A DNA stretch of 58,533 nt from Deltaproteobacteria bacterium (GTDB taxonomy: Bacteria > Desulfobacterota > Syntrophobacteria > BM002). Below are positions 8,527 to 19,722 of the stretch, in pieces. The stretch lies in the NCBI GenBank assembly GCA_019309045.1, contig JAFDGZ010000011.1:1-58533 (forward strand), read 5' to 3'. Made by a program: the position numbers and the translations under genes. The notes under the pieces were generated by a model. The model searched no databases and was not told the origin of the DNA. It saw only the letters and a list, made by a program, of their open reading frames with translations. Position 1 is the first letter of the stretch; each line of letters begins with the position of its first letter.

Positions 8527-10563
8527 TCAGGCGGCCTTTTCCACTTTGACTGCACACACCTTGTATTCAGGTATCTTGGCAATGGGATCATGAGCAGGAT
8601 TGGTGAGGATATTGGCGCAGGTCTCAGCAAAGTGGAATGGCAGGAATACCACCCCTTTTTCCACCCGTTCAGTGAGGGTTACCTTCGCCTCCAGCTGACC
8701 TCGCCGTGAGGCAACTCTCACTGGTTCGCCTTCCAGCACACCCAGTTGCCGGGCGTCAGCCGGATGCATCTCCAGTCTTGCTTCTGGTATTTCCGCATGC
8801 AGCGAAGGTGAAATTCGGGTCATGGTGCCCGTATGAAAATGGACATGAACCCGACCAGTGCTGAGCCAGAAAGGATATTCTCCGTCGATTTCTTCGGCCG
8901 GCGGCTGGTACTCAATAGCGTGAAAAAGGCCGAGGCCGCGAGCGAACTTGCCTTGATGCAAGAACTTGGTGCCTGGATGCTCCGTGTTCGGGCATGGCCA
9001 GGACAGCCCTTCTCCCTGCAAGCGCTCGTAGGTAATACCACCATAAGAGGGTGTGAGGCTGGCGATCTCCGCCATGATTGCCTCTGCATTGTCATAGCTC
9101 ATGGGATAGCCAAAACGCGTGGACAGCTCCTGGATGATTTCCCAGTCAGGTTTGGAATCTCCGAGTGGTTCTATAGCCTTGCGCACAAGCTGGACCCTTC
9201 TTTCTGTGTTGGTGAAGGTGCCATCCTTTTCAGCAAAGGAAGTTCCGGGAAGCACCACGTGAGCCAACTGTGCCGTCTCGGTGAGAAAAATGTCCTGCAC
9301 CACAAGGAGTTCAGCATTCTTCAGGGCCTTTTCCACATGACTGGCATCAGGGTCGCTCACCATGGGGTTTTCACCTATGGCATAGAGCGCTTTGACCGAG
9401 CCATCCGCAAGGCCGGCAAGTATGCCGGGGATGGTGAGTCCTATCTGGTCAGAGAGCTTGGCATTCCAGGCCTTTTCAAATTTGACTTGATTGTCGATGA
9501 CGTTTACTGCCTGGTAGCCTGGATAGACATTTGGCAGGCCACCCATATCGCAGGCGCCCTGAACATTGTTTTGCCCTCGCAAGGGGTTGACCCCGGTGGA
9601 CTCCTTGCCCACATTGCCAGTGAGCATCGCCAGATTAGCGAGAGACTTCACATTGTCTACCCCGGTGGTGTGCTGAGTGATGCCCATGCAGTAGACAATG
9701 GATGCCCGCTCGGCCTTGGCGTAAAATTCAGCGATTTTTTCAATATCTTCTGCAGACACCCCGGTAATTTTAGCCACTTTTTCCGGGGGATAACCCTGGA
9801 GGACTTTTTCAAACTCTGCGAAGTTTTCAGTGCGCTCGGCGATAAACTCCTGATCGTGCCAGCCTTTCTGGACAATGACATGCATAATGCCGTTGATCAG
9901 AGCCACATCAGTTCCCAGGTTGTGCCGGGCGTAAAGATCTGCTTTCAATGCCAGCTGGATCTTGCGCGGGTCAGCCACCACCAGCTTGGCTCCTTTGGCC
10001 TTGGCACGATAAATGCGTGTTGCCACCAGTGGATGTGAAGAGGTGGTGTTGGAGCCGATGACAAAAATGCAGTCGGCGTCCTCCAGTTCGCCGACGGAGT
10101 TGGTCATTGCTCCACTGCCGAAAGAGGCGGCAAGCCCTGCCACCGTAGAGGAGTGTCAGAGACGGGCGCAGTGGTCCACATTGTTGGTTCCCACTGCGGC
10201 ACGAGCGAATTTCTGAATAAGATAGTTCTCTTCGTTGGTCAGTTTGGCCGAAGCGAGAAAGGCGATGCTGTCACTGCCGTGAGATTCTTTGATTGCCTGC
10301 AGTCTGGAGGAGGTGTATTCGAGAGCTTCATCCCAGTCGGTTTCAACAAGCTCCCCGTTCTTGCGTATCAGCGGTTTTTTAAGTCTGGTGGGATGCTGGA
10401 TGAACTGGTGAATGTTCCAGCCCTTGACGCAGAGTTTTCCCTGATTCACGGGACTGGTCTTGGAAGGAATGGTGCCTATAATCTGGCCATCCAACACTTC
10501 CAGGTACAGACCGCAGCCGCAGCCGCAATAAGCACAGGTGGTGAGTACAGTGTGATAGTCCAT
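8527..10563 (-). CDS. fdhF: Formate dehydrogenase, catalytic subunit, selenocysteine-containing
   Basis: Molybdopterin or tungstopterin enzyme that oxidises formate to CO2, or runs in reverse. The gene is read through an in-frame TGA at 10156-10158, giving 678 residues with selenocysteine at position 136. The residues around it ([25 protein letters not shown]) are exactly those flanking the active-site Sec/Cys in formate dehydrogenases. The N-terminus has a [4Fe-4S] motif (CAYCGCGCGLYLE...CVKGW). The C-terminus is the molybdopterin-dinucleotide-binding domain (PEARLEMHPADARQLG). The start at 10563 has AAGGAG nine bases upstream. There is no signal peptide, so the enzyme is cytosolic. It follows apbE by 12 bp in the Rnf cluster. 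Confidence 0.93.
10126..10158 (-). promoter_or_regulatory. Selenocysteine codon and downstream bSECIS-like hairpin
   Basis: The in-frame TGA is at 10156-10158. Eleven bases downstream on the minus strand begins a hairpin (10126-10144): a seven-pair stem GGTGGCA/TGCCGCC with one G-U pair and a five-base loop GGGCT. The loop begins about 18 nt after the TGA, matching the geometry of the bacterial SECIS that SelB reads. The loop starts with GG, as in known elements. Read-through also requires selA, selB, selC and selD, which are not in this window. Confidence 0.75.
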
Positions 10564-10575
10564 GGTGGCGACTCC

Positions 10576-11619
10576 TTAAATTTGTTTCCACCCTGATGAT
10601 AGTATTTTGTGGTGATGCTTGTCAATAATGAGGCCTTCTGCTCCCGAGACGCGGGAGAGAAAAGAAGCTCCCCTCCTTGCTCCCATGACAAAGGCAGCAG
10701 TGGCCAGAGCATCAGCTGCCATGCCTGAAGAGGCTTTCACAGTGACACTGGCAACATTGTGCACTGGAGCACCTGAAGTAGGAGAGATGAGGTGGTGAAA
10801 CATTTTCTCGCGATCGAAGAAAACTTCATAGTTTCCGGAAGTGGCCACAGCACCGGAGTCGAGCCGGATTTCATCCAGGCATTTGTTGCGATGCCAGGGA
10901 TTTTGAATGGCGATCTTCCAGGGGTTCTTTTTGCCTTTGCCGCCGTGCACCACAATGTCTCCCCCGGCGTTGATGAGAGCATGCTGGATGCGATTTTTCT
11001 GCAGGACCTGCATGGCCTGGTCAATAATATATCCTTTGGCAATGCCGTCTAGAGTGACTCCCATGCCGGCTCTTTCAAAAGAGATTGCCTGTTTCTGCAT
11101 CCTGAGATGCGCACTGCCGATCCTGGTCTTTACCTCCAGGAGCGCCTCGGCAGTGGGAGGTGTTTGGCGAGTTCGGAAACTCTCTCGATAGAGATCCACA
11201 AGCGGTTTCACAGTGATGTCAAAGGCACCACCACTCAATTGGTAATAAAGAAGCGAGGCAGCGAATACGGTCATCACTTCAGGAGGAACGCCGCTGACAA
11301 CCCCGCTGTCGTTCAGACGTCCGATATAGGAGTTGTTCTGGAATCTGTTCATAAAGGCAGTGAGGCGATTGATTTCGGCGAAGCTTTCTTCGAGGGCCTC
11401 TTCTGCCTGTGCTGGAGATGGATGGAAGACGATCATGTTTACCACCGTTCCCATGGCCAGCCGGCTCTTGCTGACTTTGTGGAGGGAACGGTCAAATTTC
11501 ACTGCTTCCGAGGGTAGAGGAAAGTTCATGCTGAGGGCGGTGAGTCCCAGAGTGCCGCTGAGGGCGAGGAAGTGTCTGCGGCTGATGTGGTGTCTGCTCT
11601 CTGAAAAAGATTCTTTCAT
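10576..11619 (-). CDS. apbE: FAD:protein FMN transferase ApbE, Tat-exported
   Basis: Transfers FMN from FAD to a Thr or Ser of target proteins such as RnfG and RnfD on the outer face of the membrane. The N-terminus has a twin-arginine motif (SRRHFLAL) and a hydrophobic stretch. Family motifs include MGTVVNMIVF near the start of the mature protein, GGAFDITVKPL, GVTLDGIAKGYIIDQ and NAGGDIVVHG. I chose the ATG at 11619 (GAGGTGG a few bases upstream). Another ATG at 11634 overlaps the preceding stop as ATGA and is a fair alternative. RnfG upstream in this cluster carries a recognisable flavinylation motif, so it is the probable substrate. Confidence 0.92.
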   Translation of the reverse strand: MKESFSESRHHISRRHFLALSGTLGLTALSMNFPLPSEAVKFDRSLHKVSKSRLAMGTVVNMIVFHPSPAQAEEALEESFAEINRLTAFMNRFQNNSYIGRLNDSGVVSGVPPEVMTVFAASLLYYQLSGGAFDITVKPLVDLYRESFRTRQTPPTAEALLEVKTRIGSAHLRMQKQAISFERAGMGVTLDGIAKGYIIDQAMQVLQKNRIQHALINAGGDIVVHGGKGKKNPWKIAIQNPWHRNKCLDEIRLDSGAVATSGNYEVFFDREKMFHHLISPTSGAPVHNVASVTVKASSGMAADALATAAFVMGARRGASFLSRVSGAEGLIIDKHHHKILSSGWKQI

Positions 11620-11630
11620 TGCCTGCCACC

Positions 11631-12443
11631 TCATTCGTTTGCAATTGCTTTGTTGGTCTGCTCAGTGGCCAGAGCATGTGTTGCCGCTTTGGCCTCAGGT
11701 GTTTCAGCCTCCTGACCCATCACTTTTGCCACCAACTTGTAGAGACTCTTGAGCGGGATGTCAGCCGGACAGACTTCCTCACAGAGACCGCAGTAAATGC
11801 ACAAGGAACGTCCTACCATGTGAATGGCTCTGGTCATTAGAAAATTAGGATTGGCTGGCGGGATTTCGCCACGCGGGATGAGGGAGGCTTCCTCGAGAGT
11901 ACATTCGTCGCAGTAGCACACAGGACAGATGTTGCGGCAGCCGTAGCACTTGACGCAGCGGTCGAAGGTGTCGAACCATTCTTGCAGTTCTGCCAGGATG
12001 TCCACCCCGGTTGTGGCAGCTGCTTTGTCTCCTCCAAAAGGGAGTGCAGGTTCTCCAGCCACGGCAGCGTCCGGATACGGCTTCCAACAACCGTGTTTTT
12101 GGGCAAGTTCAGACGGACAGCAGAAACCCACCGGGATTACTCGGTCCCGGTGCAGTTTGCTGACTGCAAAGAGTTGCTGCAACCCCCTCTCGTCGCATCC
12201 TCTGACCAGCACGGCAAAGGTGTCGGTGGGGTATTTATGTGCAAGCTTCGTCAAGATCTTATCCAGGGGATAGCGACTGTCTCCTTGCTCCCGGTAGTCG
12301 GCTAGAGACAAACTATCAAGTTCTTCAGCCTTGGTGAAAAGATGGGGGCCTACGTGCGAGTCGTGTTCTCTCAAGGCAAGAAAGCCCTTGATTTTCCCCT
12401 CGGCAAACAGATTTGCTACATACTCTTTGATGGTGTCTTTCAT
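11631..12443 (-). CDS. Iron-sulfur protein with two cluster-binding regions, FrhB/FdhB-like
   Basis: A 270-residue soluble protein. Residues 77-110 (VLVRGCDERGLQQL...GFCCPSEL) resemble the N-terminal domain of F420-hydrogenase beta/FdhB-like proteins. A cysteine-rich segment (Cys163, 166, 169, 173, 176, 178, 181) and a classical CIYCGLCEEVCP motif (Cys215, 218, 221, 225) should bind at least two [4Fe-4S] clusters. It overlaps rseC by ATGA and apbE by up to 4 bp. Its place between Rnf and fdhF suggests that it carries electrons between the formate dehydrogenase and the Rnf complex. That role is inferred. No flavin motif is obvious, and I would not assign a specific enzyme name. Confidence 0.75.
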   Translation of the reverse strand: MKDTIKEYVANLFAEGKIKGFLALREHDSHVGPHLFTKAEELDSLSLADYREQGDSRYPLDKILTKLAHKYPTDTFAVLVRGCDERGLQQLFAVSKLHRDRVIPVGFCCPSELAQKHGCWKPYPDAAVAGEPALPFGGDKAAATTGVDILAELQEWFDTFDRCVKCYGCRNICPVCYCDECTLEEASLIPRGEIPPANPNFLMTRAIHMVGRSLCIYCGLCEEVCPADIPLKSLYKLVAKVMGQEAETPEAKAATHALATEQTNKAIANE

Positions 12444-12880
12444 CAGCTTTCCTTGATTAATCTGGTAATCTTGGGAATGGTTTCTCCAGTGTGCCCGAGT
12501 CTTCGGTCTTTTCTTTTCACTAGAAGAAAGGCGAGCCCGAAAAAAAGGGCTCCGCCCATGAAAGAGGACAGTTCCGAATCCATGTTTAGTTTTGGGGCTA
12601 GTTGTTGGCCTAAGGCGGCGCCAGTTATGAGGGCCAGGATGGGAAACATGTACACCAGAAAAGACAGTTTCACCAGAGACTGCTCTTGCAGAGTCAACAG
12701 TACCTGATCTCCTACCTTGGCATTGATTATATTGATGGCTTCAACTTCCATCTCTTTGCCGCCGCCGAGGACTTTGCAGGCGCCGTGCGAACTGCATGAT
12801 TCACACATGGTACTTCTCTTGGTGACCACCCAGGCTCTATTGCCCCTGGTTCTCTTGACTGTACCTTCTTCGTTCAACAC
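12443..12880 (-). CDS. rseC: RseC/MucC-like integral membrane protein
   Basis: A 145-residue protein of the RseC/MucC family. The N-terminal part has a Cys cluster (CESCSSHGAC) and a small beta-rich domain. Two membrane helices follow (residues about 73-92 and 104-122), then a basic tail. In gammaproteobacteria RseC is part of a system that reduces the SoxR [2Fe-2S] cluster together with Rsx (Rnf) proteins, so the Rnf link recurs here. The start is GTG at 12880. The stop overlaps the next start as ATGA. It probably helps assembly or redox maintenance of the Rnf complex; that is inferred from family association. Confidence 0.82.
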   Translation of the reverse strand: MLNEEGTVKRTRGNRAWVVTKRSTMCESCSSHGACKVLGGGKEMEVEAINIINAKVGDQVLLTLQEQSLVKLSFLVYMFPILALITGAALGQQLAPKLNMDSELSSFMGGALFFGLAFLLVKRKDRRLGHTGETIPKITRLIKES

Positions 12881-12892
12881 GATATTAGCAAC

Positions 12893-13351
12893 CTAAAAAT
12901 AGTCGGCAGGGTTGAATACCAGGGGAGCTGCTTCCTGGTCTAAAATTTCTGCTTCAGTAACCTGGCCGACAAACAGGGTATGGTCACCTATGTCTATGGT
13001 CTCAACCACGTTACAGTCTATGTATGCCAGAGCTTGGGGCAACAAAGGGAGGCCTGCTGCAGTGTGCTCGATATCTATTCCCTGGAATTTATCTACCTGC
13101 CGCCCGGTGGTAAAGCCGAAACGGGCTGCCAGGTCCACCTGATCTTGCCCCAGTACGTTAACGGCAAACTGACCGCTGCGGACAATCATGCCGTGGCATT
13201 TTCTCAAAGGGGCAATGGCGACACCAATAAGGGTTGGTTCATAAGAAAGTTGCGTGAGCCACGATCTGGTCACCCCATTGATCTGCCCATTGTCAGCAGT
13301 GGTGACGATGTATACCCCATTGGTAAGACACTTCATTACGATATTTCGCAT
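12893..13351 (-). CDS. Flavin reductase-like FMN-binding protein
   Basis: A 152-residue single-domain protein of the FMN-binding split-barrel flavin reductase family, recognised by NGVTRSWLTQLSYEPTLIGVAI and by the segment GQFAVNVLGQDQ. It probably binds FMN and moves electrons between NAD(P)H, or another donor, and free flavin or an Fe-S partner. AGGAG precedes the ATG. It lies between the rnfB fusion and rseC on the same strand, 12 bp from rseC, so it is co-transcribed with the Rnf genes. Many family members in anaerobes are part of redox operons with unknown partners, so the physiological acceptor is open. Confidence 0.8.
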   Translation of the reverse strand: MRNIVMKCLTNGVYIVTTADNGQINGVTRSWLTQLSYEPTLIGVAIAPLRKCHGMIVRSGQFAVNVLGQDQVDLAARFGFTTGRQVDKFQGIDIEHTAAGLPLLPQALAYIDCNVVETIDIGDHTLFVGQVTEAEILDQEAAPLVFNPADYF

Positions 13352-13483: not shown

Positions 13484-15538
13484 TCAGTGGTACCTGCTGC
13501 GCAGGTAGCAGATGAGTCCGCAGTTCAGACATCTTGCCGCCTCTGTTAGTGCCATCTCTTCTGTGAGTCCCAACTCTATTTCCAGAGAAGGATCGACAAG
13601 TTCTTCAGCCGGACGTTCGGGCATTTTTTGGCGAGGTGCAGCTGGCTGCAATGCTACCAGACGGCTGACGTCCAGCACGTCTGTATCCGGCGTGATCATG
13701 TGTGGTGGTGGCAAAACCTCTTTGCCGGTGAGAAACAGATGCGTGGAGGCGGCTGCCCGCCGGCCAGCGCCAATTGCTTCCACCACCGAACGGTAATCGG
13801 TCACAGTGTCTACACTTGTGAAGACTTCCTGGCGGACAGGCCTCGGTACATGATGATACGGAGAAATGGTACGCCAGCGTATAGGCGAGCCCTCATCTTC
13901 GCCAGTTGGCACTCGGACAAATATCATCTCTGGCAGGCGACCAATGGCAGCGATGATGGTGTCTGCTGCTATGAGGCTCTCTTTTGAGCGTACAGGTCTT
14001 GCCGTGCCGTTTCCAGATGGAACCGTTGTCAGGGCGAGGTGTGTGAGCCGATTCTCCTCGCCCAGGAGCCTGGTAAGCGTGGTCTGGAAATGAAGGGACA
14101 CGGACTCTTCCGCCATTTTGGCAAGATCGCTGTCAGAAAGTCCCAATTGGGCCTGTGGTCGTTCGAAGATGATATCCACCGATTCGGCACCAATTCCTCT
14201 GCATTTGCGTGCCAGGTCCAGGGCCATTTCACCACCACCCACGATGACCACCCGCTTGCCGAGCTGAACCTGGGTACCCTGAGCCAGTGCGAGAGACAGG
14301 GGTAGCAGCAGATAGAGGCCAGGTACAGGCTGCTCCAGGCCTGAGTTGCGCATAAGAATGGCGTCCCAGCCTCCAGTGGCAAGTATTACCGCCTGGTAAT
14401 CCTGCTCGAGCAGCCCAGCAATAGTAAAATCACGACCGAGAACCTGGCCAGTTCGGGCTTCCACGCCAAGTTCGAGAATGCCATTTATATCCCAGTCTAT
14501 GACGTCCCGCGGCAGACGAGACTCTGCTATAGCCTTGCGCAGTAGTCCTCCCAGTTCCGGCATGGCCTCAAAGATAGTGGGTGAGTGCCCCAGACGAGCC
14601 AGGAAGCAGGCCGTGCTCAATCCCTCTGCTCCCCCTCCCACCACTGCCAGCCGCTTGCCAGTGTCTGGTGCTTTGAACAACTCGATCCTTTCGCCGCTCT
14701 GTCTCTCATGATCCGCCACGAATCGCTTCAAGTAGTTGATGGCAACTGGTTCATCATGAAGATTTCGACGACACTCGAATTCGCAAGGATGAGGGCAGAT
14801 CCGACCGCACACCATAGGAAGTGGATTACGTTCCTTGATGATTCTGAGCGCTTCTCTGTAGTTGCCGAGAGCTGTCTGGCGGATCTGTTCAGGTATGTTG
14901 ATTCCTGCCGGACAGGTTCGTTGACAGGGTGCAGTGCACTCATCAGTGGTGTACTCGCCGAGGATGCGATCGGTAACTGAGGTCAGGGCGATGATTCCTT
15001 TCGGACAGGTCCGCACACAAGTGCCACAGCCGGTGCAGAGGTGCTCGTCCACCACAGGAAGACCATCATCTCCCATGGACAGCGCTTCAAAGGGGCAGGC
15101 CTTGACGCATGAGCCCAGACCGATACAGCCTATGGGGCACTCCTTGGGACCGCCCGCCAGCAGTACGGCAGCCCGACAATCGTCTACCCCGTCGTAGATG
15201 TACTTGAGGTCTGCCTCTTGCACACTGTAGCGGCAGCCGATATGGGCAATCTGCGGCTCCCGTTCTTCCACTTCCACGCCAAGGATCTCTGCCACCCTGG
15301 CATGCACTTCAGGACCGCCTCCAACGCAACAATTAGGGGCCAGCTTTCCTAAGACGATGGCCTGGGCTGCCGCACTGCAGCCCGGCATGCCGCAGCCGCC
15401 ACAATTTGCACCAGGCAGGGCTTCTTCCAATTCTTCCACTTTGGGATCGATGTAGACGTAGAAAACTTTGGAGGCTATGGCTAAACCCACACCCGCCAGC
15501 AAGCCGAGCCCTCCTATTGCTAAACCTGCGGTAATCAT
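13484..15538 (-). CDS. rnfB: RnfB fused to a GltD/NfnB-like FAD/NAD(P)H oxidoreductase
   Basis: Continuous 684-residue reading frame. Residues 1-25 are the RnfB membrane anchor. The RnfB iron-sulfur domain follows (ALPGANCGGCGMPGCSAAAQ), then two ferredoxin motifs (CIGLGSCVKACPF and CTGCGTCVRTCPKG). From about residue 200 the protein is a GltD-type module: a four-Cys N-terminal helical domain (CTAPCQRTCPAG...CGRICPHPCEFECRR), an FAD-binding VVGGGAEGLS, an NAD(P)H-binding VVIVGGGEMALDLA, an ATGGWDA switch and a C-terminal CLNCGLICY. Ordinary RnfB ends after the ferredoxin motifs. This fusion adds a second flavin and pyridine nucleotide site to the complex. It follows rnfA by 26 bp. Confidence 0.92.
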   Translation of the reverse strand: MITAGLAIGGLGLLAGVGLAIASKVFYVYIDPKVEELEEALPGANCGGCGMPGCSAAAQAIVLGKLAPNCCVGGGPEVHARVAEILGVEVEEREPQIAHIGCRYSVQEADLKYIYDGVDDCRAAVLLAGGPKECPIGCIGLGSCVKACPFEALSMGDDGLPVVDEHLCTGCGTCVRTCPKGIIALTSVTDRILGEYTTDECTAPCQRTCPAGINIPEQIRQTALGNYREALRIIKERNPLPMVCGRICPHPCEFECRRNLHDEPVAINYLKRFVADHERQSGERIELFKAPDTGKRLAVVGGGAEGLSTACFLARLGHSPTIFEAMPELGGLLRKAIAESRLPRDVIDWDINGILELGVEARTGQVLGRDFTIAGLLEQDYQAVILATGGWDAILMRNSGLEQPVPGLYLLLPLSLALAQGTQVQLGKRVVIVGGGEMALDLARKCRGIGAESVDIIFERPQAQLGLSDSDLAKMAEESVSLHFQTTLTRLLGEENRLTHLALTTVPSGNGTARPVRSKESLIAADTIIAAIGRLPEMIFVRVPTGEDEGSPIRWRTISPYHHVPRPVRQEVFTSVDTVTDYRSVVEAIGAGRRAAASTHLFLTGKEVLPPPHMITPDTDVLDVSRLVALQPAAPRQKMPERPAEELVDPSLEIELGLTEEMALTEAARCLNCGLICYLRSRYH

Positions 15539-15564: not shown

Positions 15565-16143
15565 TTATTTTACCAGGCCTGTAAAGCCGAGAAAAGCCAG
15601 GGAAAGAAGGCCCACAGTAATCATGGCAATGGGCATGCCGACGAATGGCCGGGGTATTCTGGCCATGGGATACCGCTCCCGCACGCTGGTGAGCAGGATC
15701 AAGGCCAAACTGTAACCCACAGATGAGGCAAAGGAGAAAACCACAGTCTTCATAAAGCTGAATTCCGACTGGATGTTGATGATGGCAATACCCAACACGG
15801 CACAGTTAGTAGTAATCAGCGGCAGATAGATACCGAGAGCCTTGTAGAGAGCCGGTACGGACTTTTGCAGAAACATCTCCACCAGCTGGACCAGGGCAGC
15901 AATTATGAGAATAAAGGCAATGGTTTGCAGGTACTCCAGGTTCAAAGGATCCAGGATAGCGTATTGCACTATCCAGGTGATCACTCCTGCAAGGGTTATG
16001 ACAAACACCACAGCCATACCCATGCCGGTGGCAGTGTCCATTCGTTGTGATACACCGAGAAAGGGGCAGTTGCCGAGATACCTCGCCAGAATAATGTTGT
16101 TTACCAGGATGGCACTTACAATCAGCAGTAAATAATCAGACAT
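15565..16143 (-). CDS. rnfA: Rnf complex subunit RnfA
   Basis: 192-residue integral membrane subunit of the ion-pumping Rnf complex, with six predicted helices. The start MSDYLLLIVSAILVNNIIL, the segment LGNCPFLGVS and the internal LITTNCAVLGIAI are characteristic of RnfA/RsxA, including the conserved Cys residues that hold the intramembrane [2Fe-2S] cluster with RnfE. The gene sits between rnfE (75 bp) and rnfB (26 bp). Nothing departs from a normal RnfA, which suggests the membrane core of the complex is functional. Confidence 0.95.
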   Translation of the reverse strand: MSDYLLLIVSAILVNNIILARYLGNCPFLGVSQRMDTATGMGMAVVFVITLAGVITWIVQYAILDPLNLEYLQTIAFILIIAALVQLVEMFLQKSVPALYKALGIYLPLITTNCAVLGIAIINIQSEFSFMKTVVFSFASSVGYSLALILLTSVRERYPMARIPRPFVGMPIAMITVGLLSLAFLGFTGLVK

Positions 16144-16217: not shown

Positions 16218-16814
16218 TCACGCGTGTTTCTTGCGACTGACCAGATTCATCAAACCCAGCAAAGCTCCCAGACAGACAAAAGCGCCAGGAGCCTTTACCA
16301 TGAAGGCAAAGGGTTCGAAGCTGGCCCACATGATGTGGGCGCCAAAAATGGTGCCATTTCCCAGAATTTCACGAATACTTCCCAGCACCGTAAGAGAAAT
16401 GGTGAAGCCCAGACCGATGCCGAGACCGTCGGCAATAGAGTGGGCGACAGGGTTTTTGGAGGCGAATGCTTCTGCCCGGCCGAGGATGATGCAGTTGACG
16501 ACAATCAGCGGGATAAATATGCCGAGTATCTTGTAAAGGGGATAGAAATAGGCCTGCATCAGAAGTTCTACCATGACCACAAACGACGCTATCACTACAA
16601 TGTAAGCGGCAATCCTTACCTTGCTGGGAATAGCTTTACGCAGCAGGGAAATGAGCAAATTGGAAAACACCAGCACGAAGGTGGTGGCAAGCCCCATGCC
16701 CACACCATTCTTGGCTGCAGTGGTTACCGCCAGAGTAGGGCACAGACCGAGCACCAATCGAAAGGGTGGGATGTCTCGCCACAATCCTTTGGTGAATTCA
16801 TGGACTAGGCTCAT
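16218..16814 (-). CDS. rnfE: Rnf complex subunit RnfE
   Basis: 198-residue integral membrane subunit, paralogous to RnfA and inserted in the opposite topology. Recognisable segments are FRLVLGLCPTLAVTTAAKNGVGMG and LIVVNCIILGRAEAFASKN (quoted in short here: GLCPTLAVTTA and VNCIILGRAEAFA). These hold the conserved Cys of the intramembrane iron-sulfur cluster. The start ATG overlaps the end of rnfG by 4 bp, typical of this operon. Length and motifs are normal. Confidence 0.95.
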   Translation of the reverse strand: MSLVHEFTKGLWRDIPPFRLVLGLCPTLAVTTAAKNGVGMGLATTFVLVFSNLLISLLRKAIPSKVRIAAYIVVIASFVVMVELLMQAYFYPLYKILGIFIPLIVVNCIILGRAEAFASKNPVAHSIADGLGIGLGFTISLTVLGSIREILGNGTIFGAHIMWASFEPFAFMVKAPGAFVCLGALLGLMNLVSRKKHA

Positions 16815-17401
16815 GGTTTGAAGGCCTCCTTCTTGATTGCAGCAAATTCCTGCAGTGCTTTGTCTACGGCTGTGACCACACCCCTGCTAGAATAGCTGGC
16901 ACCGCTCACCGCATCCACCTGGCCGCCGTCTGCTGTGAGCTTTGCTGTTTGCAGATCCAGTCCAGCGAACTGTTCCGTGAATTGGGGCTCGGTGATGCGG
17001 GCTCCCAGGCCGGGAGTCTCGGAGTGACTCATTATGCTGATGCCGCTGAGTTTGGCGTTGGGGCCAACCCCTACCATAACCTCGATCATGTCGTGGTATC
17101 CTTTGGCTTTGGAGGCGTAAGCCACTCCCAGGACCTTGCCGCCTTTTTTAGCCGGGAAAACGGTTACCTTCAGAGGATGGCCTTCCTCGTCTTTGCCCAC
17201 TATTACCTCCAAGCGGTCCTGAATTGGATCGTTGTCGTAGTTGAAGCTACCCAAGACCGCTTTTATAGAAGGTTCCTGGACATACTTGAGGAGCTGGTAC
17301 TCTCTGGGAGCAACCGTGGCCTTGTTTACATAAGACAACACCACTCCGGAGGTGGTGCAGATTACCGTCAGAACCACAACCATTCTTACCAGATCACGCA
17401 A
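16811..17401 (-). CDS. rnfG: Rnf complex subunit RnfG (covalent FMN protein)
   Basis: 196-residue single-pass protein with one N-terminal membrane helix and an extracytoplasmic FMN-binding domain. The family motif SHSETPGLGARI is present. The flavinylation motif reads DAVSGASYSS (residues 163-172), so the acceptor is Ser169 rather than the more usual Thr. The start is TTG at 17401, chosen because MRDLVRMVVVLTVI matches other RnfG N-termini; the ATG six codons later is the alternative. The start overlaps the end of rnfD by 8 bp. ApbE from the same cluster is the expected flavin donor enzyme. Confidence 0.93.
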   Translation of the reverse strand: MRDLVRMVVVLTVICTTSGVVLSYVNKATVAPREYQLLKYVQEPSIKAVLGSFNYDNDPIQDRLEVIVGKDEEGHPLKVTVFPAKKGGKVLGVAYASKAKGYHDMIEVMVGVGPNAKLSGISIMSHSETPGLGARITEPQFTEQFAGLDLQTAKLTADGGQVDAVSGASYSSRGVVTAVDKALQEFAAIKKEAFKP

Positions 17402-18371
17402 CTTCTCTCACCCTCCCGTAGACTCGCGGCCGTAGCCGGTCTAACAGCGGCACGGCAGCATTCATGAAAAGTATGGCAAAGGCCACACCATCAACGTATC
17501 CACCCCAAAAGCGGATAATCATGGTGACCAAGCCGCACCCTATGCCAAAGACAATCATGCCTGGAGCAGTAACAGGTATGGTGCCTTTGTCTGTGGCAAG
17601 GAAAAAGGCCCCGAACACCAGCCAGCCACTGAGAAGATGAATGGTGGGATTGGCATATTGCTCAGGGTCTATCAGCCAGAAAATCAGGCCGAAAATCCAG
17701 GCGGAGGCAAGAAAGCTTACAGGTATATGCCAGGTTATAATGCCGCGCCACAAAAGGTAGACACCGCCAATGAGAGCAGCCACTATGCACACCGTACCTA
17801 TAGTTCCCGGCACATTACCAAGAAAGAGATCTCTCCAGGGGAGGTCCAGCAGAGCATCCACCCCGTCGATCCGCATCACCTCTAGAGGCGGATATTCAAT
17901 GTAGCCTCCGGCCTCCAACCAGAAGCGGGGTTCGGGCATGGCCCAGGTGGTCATTTGAGCGGCCCACGAAATTCTGACAATGGCCCATCCCACTAGGACC
18001 GCATTGAAGGGGTTGTTGCCCAATCCACCGAAAATCTGCCGGCCGAGGAGGACCGCAACAGCAGTTCCAACCACGGCAGTCCACCAGGGCAGTTCCGGTG
18101 AGCAGAGAAGGGCGAAAAGCAATCCCAGGAGCACACTGCTGCCGTTGGTCAAGGTAATTTTTCTTCCCATGATTCGCTCAGCGCCGGCCTCACAGACAAC
18201 CGCTGTGGCCACACAGATGACAATGAGCTTTACTGCTGCAAAGCCAAAGTAAAAGACGCCGGCAAGAGCAACAGGTATAAGAGCCAGCAGGGTGTGGTAC
18301 ATGATACTGGCGGTGGTCCTAGGATGTTGAATATGAGGGGCAACGGAAACCCGCAGCATTGGCTTATCCAT
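17394..18371 (-). CDS. rnfD: Rnf complex subunit RnfD, flavinylation motif absent
   Basis: 325-residue membrane subunit of the NqrB/RnfD family with about nine or ten helices. The N-terminus SVAPHIQHPRTTASIMYHTL, the segment FGGLGNNPFNAVLVGWA and the end FATDKGT-like motif (FLATDKGTIPVT) confirm the family. The loop between residues about 145 and 190, which in most RnfD holds an (S/T)xATPL motif with covalent FMN, here reads MRIDGVDALLDLPWRDLFLG with no such Thr. The following GS-x-GE motif is also altered to GTIG. So this RnfD appears not to be flavinylated at the usual site. It overlaps rnfC by 8 bp and rnfG by 8 bp. Confidence 0.93.
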   Translation of the reverse strand: MDKPMLRVSVAPHIQHPRTTASIMYHTLLALIPVALAGVFYFGFAAVKLIVICVATAVVCEAGAERIMGRKITLTNGSSVLLGLLFALLCSPELPWWTAVVGTAVAVLLGRQIFGGLGNNPFNAVLVGWAIVRISWAAQMTTWAMPEPRFWLEAGGYIEYPPLEVMRIDGVDALLDLPWRDLFLGNVPGTIGTVCIVAALIGGVYLLWRGIITWHIPVSFLASAWIFGLIFWLIDPEQYANPTIHLLSGWLVFGAFFLATDKGTIPVTAPGMIVFGIGCGLVTMIIRFWGGYVDGVAFAILFMNAAVPLLDRLRPRVYGRVREVA

Positions 18372-19722
18372 TTGCCTGTCCTCCCTCCCTCAGAGCTAGT
18401 TCTCGTTTCCCCAGCCGCAGCAGCTGCAGCAAAGGTCTCTTGGCCGGGCAGACGTAAGCACAGATTGCACATTCAATGCAATGAAACAGGTATTTTTCTG
18501 CTGCATCATCGAACATGCCATATTCACAGTATCTTGCCAGTTCATTGGGTAGCAGCCGCACAGGGCAATACCTATGACAGACGCCGCAGTTGATGCAGGA
18601 GTCGGTAGAGAAGCGGCTGACTTCCCCGGCTGTCTGCAGTATCAGCGTGTCGATTTCTTTTGTCAGCGGGATATCCAGACTGGAAAGAGCAAAGCCGGTC
18701 ATGGCACCGCCCGCGATCACCTTCGCAGGTTCTGCGGTAATACCCGGCAGGTAGTCGAGCAGCTCTTTGATAGGTGTACCCACTCTTACAGAAACATTTG
18801 TTATATGAGACAAGCCCCCACCGGAGATGCTCACCATTTTCTTTATCGGGGGTTTGCCTTTGGCTGCTTCTGCCAAATTTACCAGAGTGACCGCGTTGAC
18901 GACTGCGGCGCCCACATCTCGTTCTTCACCATCCGGCAGAGGGATTTCTCTACCAGTAAGTTGTTTGATCAATATGGGGGGGAGACCTAGAGGGTACTTG
19001 TCCTTGCCGTGGAAAAGTTCTACTCCGAGTTCAGTCAACCTGGTAGCCAGCGTGGGCTCCAGAGGACCATTGCCGGTAATTGCCAGGATGATTCTGGCAT
19101 CGCCCACCACCTTCTTCAGGAGCTGCAAACCGGCGAGCAGTTCGTTGCTGCGCAAATTGAGTACAGCCCTCCGCAAGGCCATGCCAGGCTCCGCATCAAT
19201 GGCGTTGACTATGAGGGTGTCCACTTCTTTGGCTGGGGGAATGCCTACCAGGAAAGTATATTCTTTTGTCGGGCTCGGCGCGGCAAATTTGGTATGGAGG
19301 GCAACAGCAGGTGGTCCGCTGTCCATCACACCCATCTCTTTAATGGCATCCAGTATTGCAGAGCGGTCAGTCTCCTGAGAAAGCTCAGGATAAGGTCTCT
19401 TTTCCTGCCAACCATCTTTGCCATCCGACTCGATAATTACTGAAAGGATTTCATCACCTTTCTCATTGGGCCATGGGCGGATGGCCGTCACCTTGCCGGA
19501 TATGGAGGCGTGCACTGGCGCAACCGTAAAGGCTGTGCTCCGGCCCACCAGCTGACCAACAGCTACCTGGTCGCCGACAGCCACTACTGGTTCGCAAAGG
19601 CTGCTGGCATCAGACCCCATGGGAAGTATGACCTTTTGGGGAGGTGGGGCTTCCTCTATGCCGGGGCTTGCTAGATTCGTTGCAGGAAGGAACACGCCGC
19701 GAAAAGATGTTTTCATACCCAT
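18364..19722 (-). CDS. rnfC: Rnf complex subunit RnfC with degenerate NADH/FMN site
   Basis: 452-residue peripheral subunit and first gene of the cluster. The N-terminal barrel-sandwich domain, the SLBB-like part and both cluster motifs (CINCGVCHRYCP and CIECAICAYVCPAKRP) are intact. The sites that bind NADH and FMN in other RnfC are altered. The glycine-rich GLGGAxFPTHVK loop reads SGPPAVALHTKF (residues 135-146). The NxAECEPY motif reads NAIDAEPGM (173-181), and YPxGGEKQL reads YPLGLPPIL (243-251). The protein therefore looks able to pass electrons through its clusters but not to bind NADH. AAAGGTAGG lies upstream of the ATG. Confidence 0.93.
   Translation of the reverse strand: MGMKTSFRGVFLPATNLASPGIEEAPPPQKVILPMGSDASSLCEPVVAVGDQVAVGQLVGRSTAFTVAPVHASISGKVTAIRPWPNEKGDEILSVIIESDGKDGWQEKRPYPELSQETDRSAILDAIKEMGVMDSGPPAVALHTKFAAPSPTKEYTFLVGIPPAKEVDTLIVNAIDAEPGMALRRAVLNLRSNELLAGLQLLKKVVGDARIILAITGNGPLEPTLATRLTELGVELFHGKDKYPLGLPPILIKQLTGREIPLPDGEERDVGAAVVNAVTLVNLAEAAKGKPPIKKMVSISGGGLSHITNVSVRVGTPIKELLDYLPGITAEPAKVIAGGAMTGFALSSLDIPLTKEIDTLILQTAGEVSRFSTDSCINCGVCHRYCPVRLLPNELARYCEYGMFDDAAEKYLFHCIECAICAYVCPAKRPLLQLLRLGKRELALREGGQANG

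Follow-up and report, generated by a model that had tools for sequence, protein, structure and literature searches.

The window, as we call the whole 58.5-kb stretch of DNA that was analysed, carries on its minus strand a compact gene cluster in the order rnfC, rnfD, rnfG, rnfE, rnfA, rnfB fused to a GltD-like module (RnfB::GltD), a flavin-reductase-like gene, an RseC-like gene, an FdhB-like gene, apbE and fdhA (Table 1), with intergenic spacings of −8 to +132 bp from rnfC through to fdhA. All six Rnf subunits are encoded; RnfB is present, and no gene for an NqrF (FNR-type) subunit was found in the operon. The same genome contains dsrA, and the host is a sulfite/sulfate-reducing bacterium. Two accessory features vary among the loci compared. 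In the RnfG flavinylation motif, Ser replaces the FMN-bearing Thr; close relatives whose motif is readable have SGAT, and the operon includes apbE. The flavin-reductase-like ORF begins with an apparent response-regulator receiver domain in loci L001 (16484-17374), L005 (11014-11904) and L006 (16419-17309), and consists of the flavin-reductase part only, without the receiver-like start, in the window and L003.

Table 1 Features of the rnf and formate dehydrogenase gene cluster (positions in the window)
Feature	Position	Strand	Description
rnfC	18364..19722	−	452 aa; FMN/NADH site degenerate, both [4Fe-4S] motifs intact
rnfD	17394..18371	−	325 aa; lacks the covalent-FMN threonine (A. woodii T156; reads EYPPL); retains riboflavin ligands N123 and D249
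rnfG	16811..17401	−	196 aa; flavinylation motif SGAS (relatives SGAT)
rnfE	16218..16814	−	198 aa; both cluster cysteines present
rnfA	15565..16143	−	192 aa; both cluster cysteines present
rnfB fused to GltD/NfnL-like module	13484..15538	−	684 aa; retains [4Fe-4S] cysteines and FAD residues; altered at the NAD(P)H site
Flavin-reductase-like protein	12893..13351	−	152 aa; PF01613
RseC-like membrane protein	12443..12880	−	PF04246
FdhB-like beta subunit	11631..12443	−	270 aa; dicluster; shorter than F420-dependent FdhB
ApbE flavin transferase	10576..11634	−	PF02424
fdhA, formate dehydrogenase alpha	8527..10563	−	Selenocysteine U136 (in-frame TGA); TIGR01591, 880 bits
SECIS_3 at the fdhA TGA	10103..10161	−	E = 1.8e-9, under the Rfam gathering score

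The rnfC gene is exactly the open reading frame named by the first-pass annotation, and its product scores 292 bits against TIGR01945 in a profile search (curated cut-off 245.95). The best solved structures are 9eri_C, 7zc6_C and 8ahx_C, and the alignment to them, which spans the full length, agrees with the motifs as first read. Motif 1 is GVMDSGPPAVALHTKF where solved RnfCs have GIVGLGGATFPTHVKL, motif 2 is NAIDAEPGM versus NGAECEPYL, and motif 3 is YPLGLPPILI versus YPQGAEKQLI; the canonical forms GxGGAxFP, N..ECEPY and YP.G.EKQ are matched at 2/7, 3/6 and 3/6, respectively, and none is present. PF01512 remains recognisable in the NADH domain, with its motifs eroded. Both CxxCxxCxxxC motifs are intact, as had been noted earlier, and all eight cluster cysteines are in place.

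To quantify the erosion, conserved columns were defined as those at least 95% identical in 23 standard RnfCs. The window RnfC keeps 11/24 motif columns (p = 0.04 versus all other conserved columns). Elsewhere in the NuoF-like domain it keeps 16/28, and its Fe-S and N-terminal domains keep 13/14 and 6/7, respectively. The reported loss of the FMN/NADH site is thus partial: it holds for the glycine loop GxGGA and the E-K-Q clamp of motif 3, which are replaced throughout the window's RnfC family and kept by standard loci, but motif 2 is the least damaged of the three, and its NAIDAEPG resembles NADEMEPG (NADExEPG) in NuoF of the same genome. The three changes had been counted as independent; since the motifs build a single site within one domain and changed jointly in a single lineage, they are not separate events. 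Judged from these residues, the NAD+ site is very probably gone or changed. The gene itself is under purifying selection, with dN/dS of 0.10-0.19 among close relatives, the window RnfC being slightly more changed than theirs, and a genome-wide search found no second RnfC. An AlphaFold2 model reached a pLDDT of 60, too low to judge the pocket; Foldseek placed RnfC of A. woodii and C. tetanomorphum on top with low TM-scores (0.40 and 0.39), and the model indicates an RnfC fold while saying nothing about the pocket.

A TIGR01945 search covered 56 genomes from the class and 395 from the phylum, with about 100 loci inspected. RnfC motif scores were bimodal, with 20 standard RnfCs in Rnf loci at 16-19 of 19 and degenerate ones at ≤10. 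Degenerate RnfC is common to all close relatives of the window and is not peculiar to this one locus. Occurrence of the same sequence in related species, an outcome that the first-pass annotation had listed as refuting its reading, was thus observed, and the change is clade-wide. The proposed check for co-occurrence with fused RnfB gave a clear count, with degenerate RnfC at 32/32 loci that combine a fused RnfB with rnfC, and fused RnfB at 0/20 standard RnfC loci. In a tree built on RnfD+G+E+A, leaving out RnfC and RnfB, the degenerate loci nevertheless form one clade of 44 (SH-aLRT 100), a second group excepted, and this clade also takes in complexes with ordinary short RnfB. RnfC degeneracy thus appears on this tree as one clade plus one small second origin, and because this amounts to 2-3 events, the co-occurrence mostly reflects shared history; an independent-pairs test of fusion versus degeneracy had just 2-3 pairs and no power. 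Nor is fusion required for the loss in RnfC, since 15 loci combine an unfused RnfB with a degenerate RnfC. Either RnfC changed without fusion, or the fusion may later have been lost, the tree being unable to separate gain from loss.

Several loci showed peculiarities of their own. The second group (L080, L083, L087, L114, L116 and L118) has a degenerate RnfC with the glycine loop deleted and EFEP in motif 2, keeps the FMN motif of RnfD, and has GEAB before C-D where the order is readable. In L103, L105 and L106, which belong to a degenerate, unfused group, rnfE is apparently split or shortened (ORFs of 92-113 aa), and in L129 rnfD is split over two ORFs. At L002 (from about 12400) and L007 (from about 13050), in two chromosome-level MAGs, runs of unknown bases interrupt the rnf operon within or after rnfD/rnfG, probably through masking or misassembly.

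A further change concerns RnfD, whose covalent FMN sits on T156 in A. woodii (PMC11889175) and on T153 in C. tetanomorphum (PMC9588780). The corresponding motif, [DN]xx[ST]xATP, is kept in standard loci (one with a split rnfD) and gone at most degenerate loci, all fused ones included. RnfD of the clade of 44 is without the covalent-FMN threonine, and the window RnfD combines its absence with retained riboflavin ligands (Table 1).

The phylum sample contained some 60 full-length RnfB::GltD proteins, and an alignment of 60 of them resolved two classes. The canonical class (n = 27) has an intact NADP site (GGGNTAxD, YRR and EMPA) in 27/27. In the altered class (n = 33), to which the window belongs, the NADP-site residues vary widely, but 33/33 retain the C-terminal G-R, the glycines and the acidic residue for FAD, and the six cluster cysteines of GltD that were examined. 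In the RnfB tree each class is a clade of its own, with L191 as the single misfit. The window RnfB retains neither the N nor the T, nor the first R of YRR, nor EMPA, and the YRR site is graded within its family, from YRRS in L005 through HRRS in L001 to FERP in the window. The Rossmann GxGxxA pattern persists, and with it some dinucleotide binding is possible. The nearest proteins to the GltD-like module are of the NfnA/StnA type, which use NADP(H). RnfB::GltD also occurs alone, without rnfC and rnfD, in 13/27 canonical and 15/33 altered cases, some of them on short contigs. Examples lacking rnfC or rnfD are L169, L172, L178, L181, L185, L189, L192, L197 and L203, some of them beside formate dehydrogenase or NuoF-like genes.

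In the stretches read, fdhA accompanies altered fusions in 14/33 cases and canonical fusions in 0/27 (Fisher p = 8.7e-5, in a test that ignores relatedness), and its presence near fused RnfB changes eight times on the RnfB tree. For the other 19/33 altered fusions, some of which lie on short contigs, the sequence read contains no fdhA. Five of the 14 fdhA-bearing altered fusions are at loci without rnfC/rnfD. L169 and L172, with RnfBs that rank among those closest to the window's, carry RnfB::GltD-FdhB-FdhA and no further rnf gene, which argues that formate dehydrogenase goes with RnfB. The first-pass annotation had offered formate dehydrogenase as a donor to RnfC; this partner gains support from fdhAB in the operon and from its recurrence among altered fusions, but these neighbourhoods point to docking of FdhAB on RnfB and not on RnfC.

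The window encodes both parts by which we recognised FdhAB, an FdhA with a Sec/Cys active site (here Sec) and a dicluster FdhB. The FdhB-like protein most closely resembles the F420-linked formate dehydrogenase beta subunit (9t1s_M, 8rvu_E, 7bkb_E), the match being good over the dicluster part only, while the F420 part does not match. Across the phylum, FdhB-like proteins without Rnf nearby have HdrA directly upstream at 18/19 loci, the 19th lying near a contig start. The window's genome itself has a second FdhB-like gene behind HdrA (G000:C14; L233, 6143-7051), so a single genome contains both kinds of FdhB partner. From this gene context, FdhAB appears to couple to FAD/Fe-S flavoproteins, with RnfB::GltD replacing HdrA in the window's lineage. 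The GltD-like module is not specific to formate, since at least one altered fusion, the orphan of L185, adjoins a NuoF-like protein instead, a case that suggests an interchangeable input to RnfB::GltD.

How might such a complex work? We read the encoded complex as an Rnf2 (Tol2-type) ion pump in a variant linked to formate, a model to which we give a probability of roughly 0.45. The pump would probably exchange electrons with formate rather than NAD(P)H, because the NADPH site of RnfB is also worn away and genes for a formate-oxidising enzyme lie in the same operon. The FAD/Fe-S module of RnfB is the most likely docking site for FdhAB and would exchange electrons with it, RnfB::GltD standing where HdrA stands for the FdhAB pair elsewhere. 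Electrons would then pass from the ferredoxin domains of RnfB to the RnfA/E cluster, to RnfG, and on to RnfD and RnfC, or in reverse, coupled to Na+ or H+ transport, and the RnfC clusters would meet a cytoplasmic partner other than NAD+. The fuller proposal, an Rnf without any NAD(P)H site that acts as a redox-driven Na+/H+ pump with formate entering via FdhAB on RnfB and another partner on RnfC, is somewhat more tentative still.

The main rival is an exit of electrons at RnfG to a periplasmic multihaem cytochrome encoded elsewhere, as proposed for Methanosarcina, with RnfC as a relic or scaffold. It draws on the 4-8 haem cytochrome gene directly upstream of rnfC in many clade members, on the lost FMN anchor of RnfD, and on the Rnf of M. 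acetivorans, which does not use NAD(P) and whose RnfC retains two clusters (PMC4023990, where an RnfC without NAD use is discussed). However, no ORF with at least two CxxCH motifs was found in the 58.5-kb window, none lies beside rnfC in the window's relatives, and the cysteines of RnfC are conserved, as are the riboflavin ligands of RnfD, which leaves this exit a doubtful though serious contender. We find it harder to believe that RnfC still binds FMN and NAD(H) through a diverged, working pocket: the kept motif columns, the NuoF-like motif 2 and the RnfC fold would allow it, yet the residues replaced family-wide are those that standard loci keep.

Equally improbable is a move of the pyridine-nucleotide site from RnfC to RnfB, with the GltD-like module oxidising or forming NAD(P)H, as NqrF does in NQR. 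The first-pass annotation had raised this idea upon seeing a second pyridine-nucleotide module on RnfB, and the C-terminal GltD/NfnL-like module is indeed there, nearest to NfnA/StnA-type proteins and with a sister class of 27 intact NADP sites; NAD+-binding sites have also been noted on the large RnfB of the Tol2 type (PMC5109826). In the window, however, the NAD(P)H residues of RnfB are scrambled while its FAD/Fe-S residues are kept, so a simple replacement was rejected there; relatives vary at the same residues, and the RnfC site is also lost in unfused members. For the canonical class of fusions, such a move is possible. Decay of the locus, with RnfC losing its function, might explain the slightly more changed window RnfC and the SGAS of RnfG, but it is contradicted by an intact, tightly spaced operon, and the dN/dS values together with invariant cysteines rule it out for rnfC, leaving this reading a negligible chance.

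In outline, the complex is not new: it is the Rnf2/Tol2-type already described for Desulfobacteraceae (PMC5109826, PMC11887813). For D. toluolica Tol2 and for rnf2 of D. multivorans, a large RnfB (about 700 aa) carrying NAD+-binding sites was reported together with an RnfC without the NADH domain, and the acceptor for the Tol2-type Rnf was posed as unknown (PMC5109826); the variant is named Rnf2 and counted as a core complex of Desulfobacteraceae in PMC11887813. Rnf2 is reported to be formed constitutively and is drawn as a link between ferredoxin and NAD(H). The window shares with this type all six subunits and the large RnfB with a C-terminal flavoprotein module; its RnfC, with an NADH domain that is recognisable but eroded in its motifs, probably resembles the Tol2-type RnfC in having no proper NADH site. 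It differs in the altered NAD(P)H site of its RnfB, in having no cytochrome gene, unlike the D. multivorans cluster, and in carrying fdhAB in the operon. With canonical Rnf (A. woodii, C. tetanomorphum, A. vinelandii) it has in common the six subunits, the Fe-S cysteines of RnfA, RnfE and RnfC and the riboflavin ligands of RnfD, but it is without the RnfC FMN/NADH motifs and the RnfD FMN threonine, and its RnfB is fused. Na+-NQR offers a parallel in NqrA, an RnfC counterpart without an FMN/NADH site, and in a flavoprotein input module beside the core, whereas the window has no NqrF and instead has RnfB Fe-S domains and RnfC clusters. Hdr-Fdh complexes, in which HdrA goes with FdhAB, show the same FdhB-FdhA gene pair adjoining a FAD/Fe-S flavoprotein, which in the window is the membrane-anchored RnfB::GltD and not HdrA. 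The open-licence literature searched yielded no mention of the RnfD change, of two classes of RnfB or of an rnf operon with formate dehydrogenase genes; the two clades of fused RnfB, with the window's lacking the NADPH site, are new here.

Desulfobacteraceae are important in marine carbon and sulfur cycling. In the clade described here, the RnfC NADH residues and the RnfD FMN anchor are lost, as is the NADPH site in about half of the fused RnfBs. The long-noted question of the true reaction partner of Rnf2 becomes directly testable, with formate as a concrete candidate. If the formate-linked reading is true, the window would be one case of a family with swappable inputs, and RnfB::GltD would be the membrane-anchored counterpart of HdrA.
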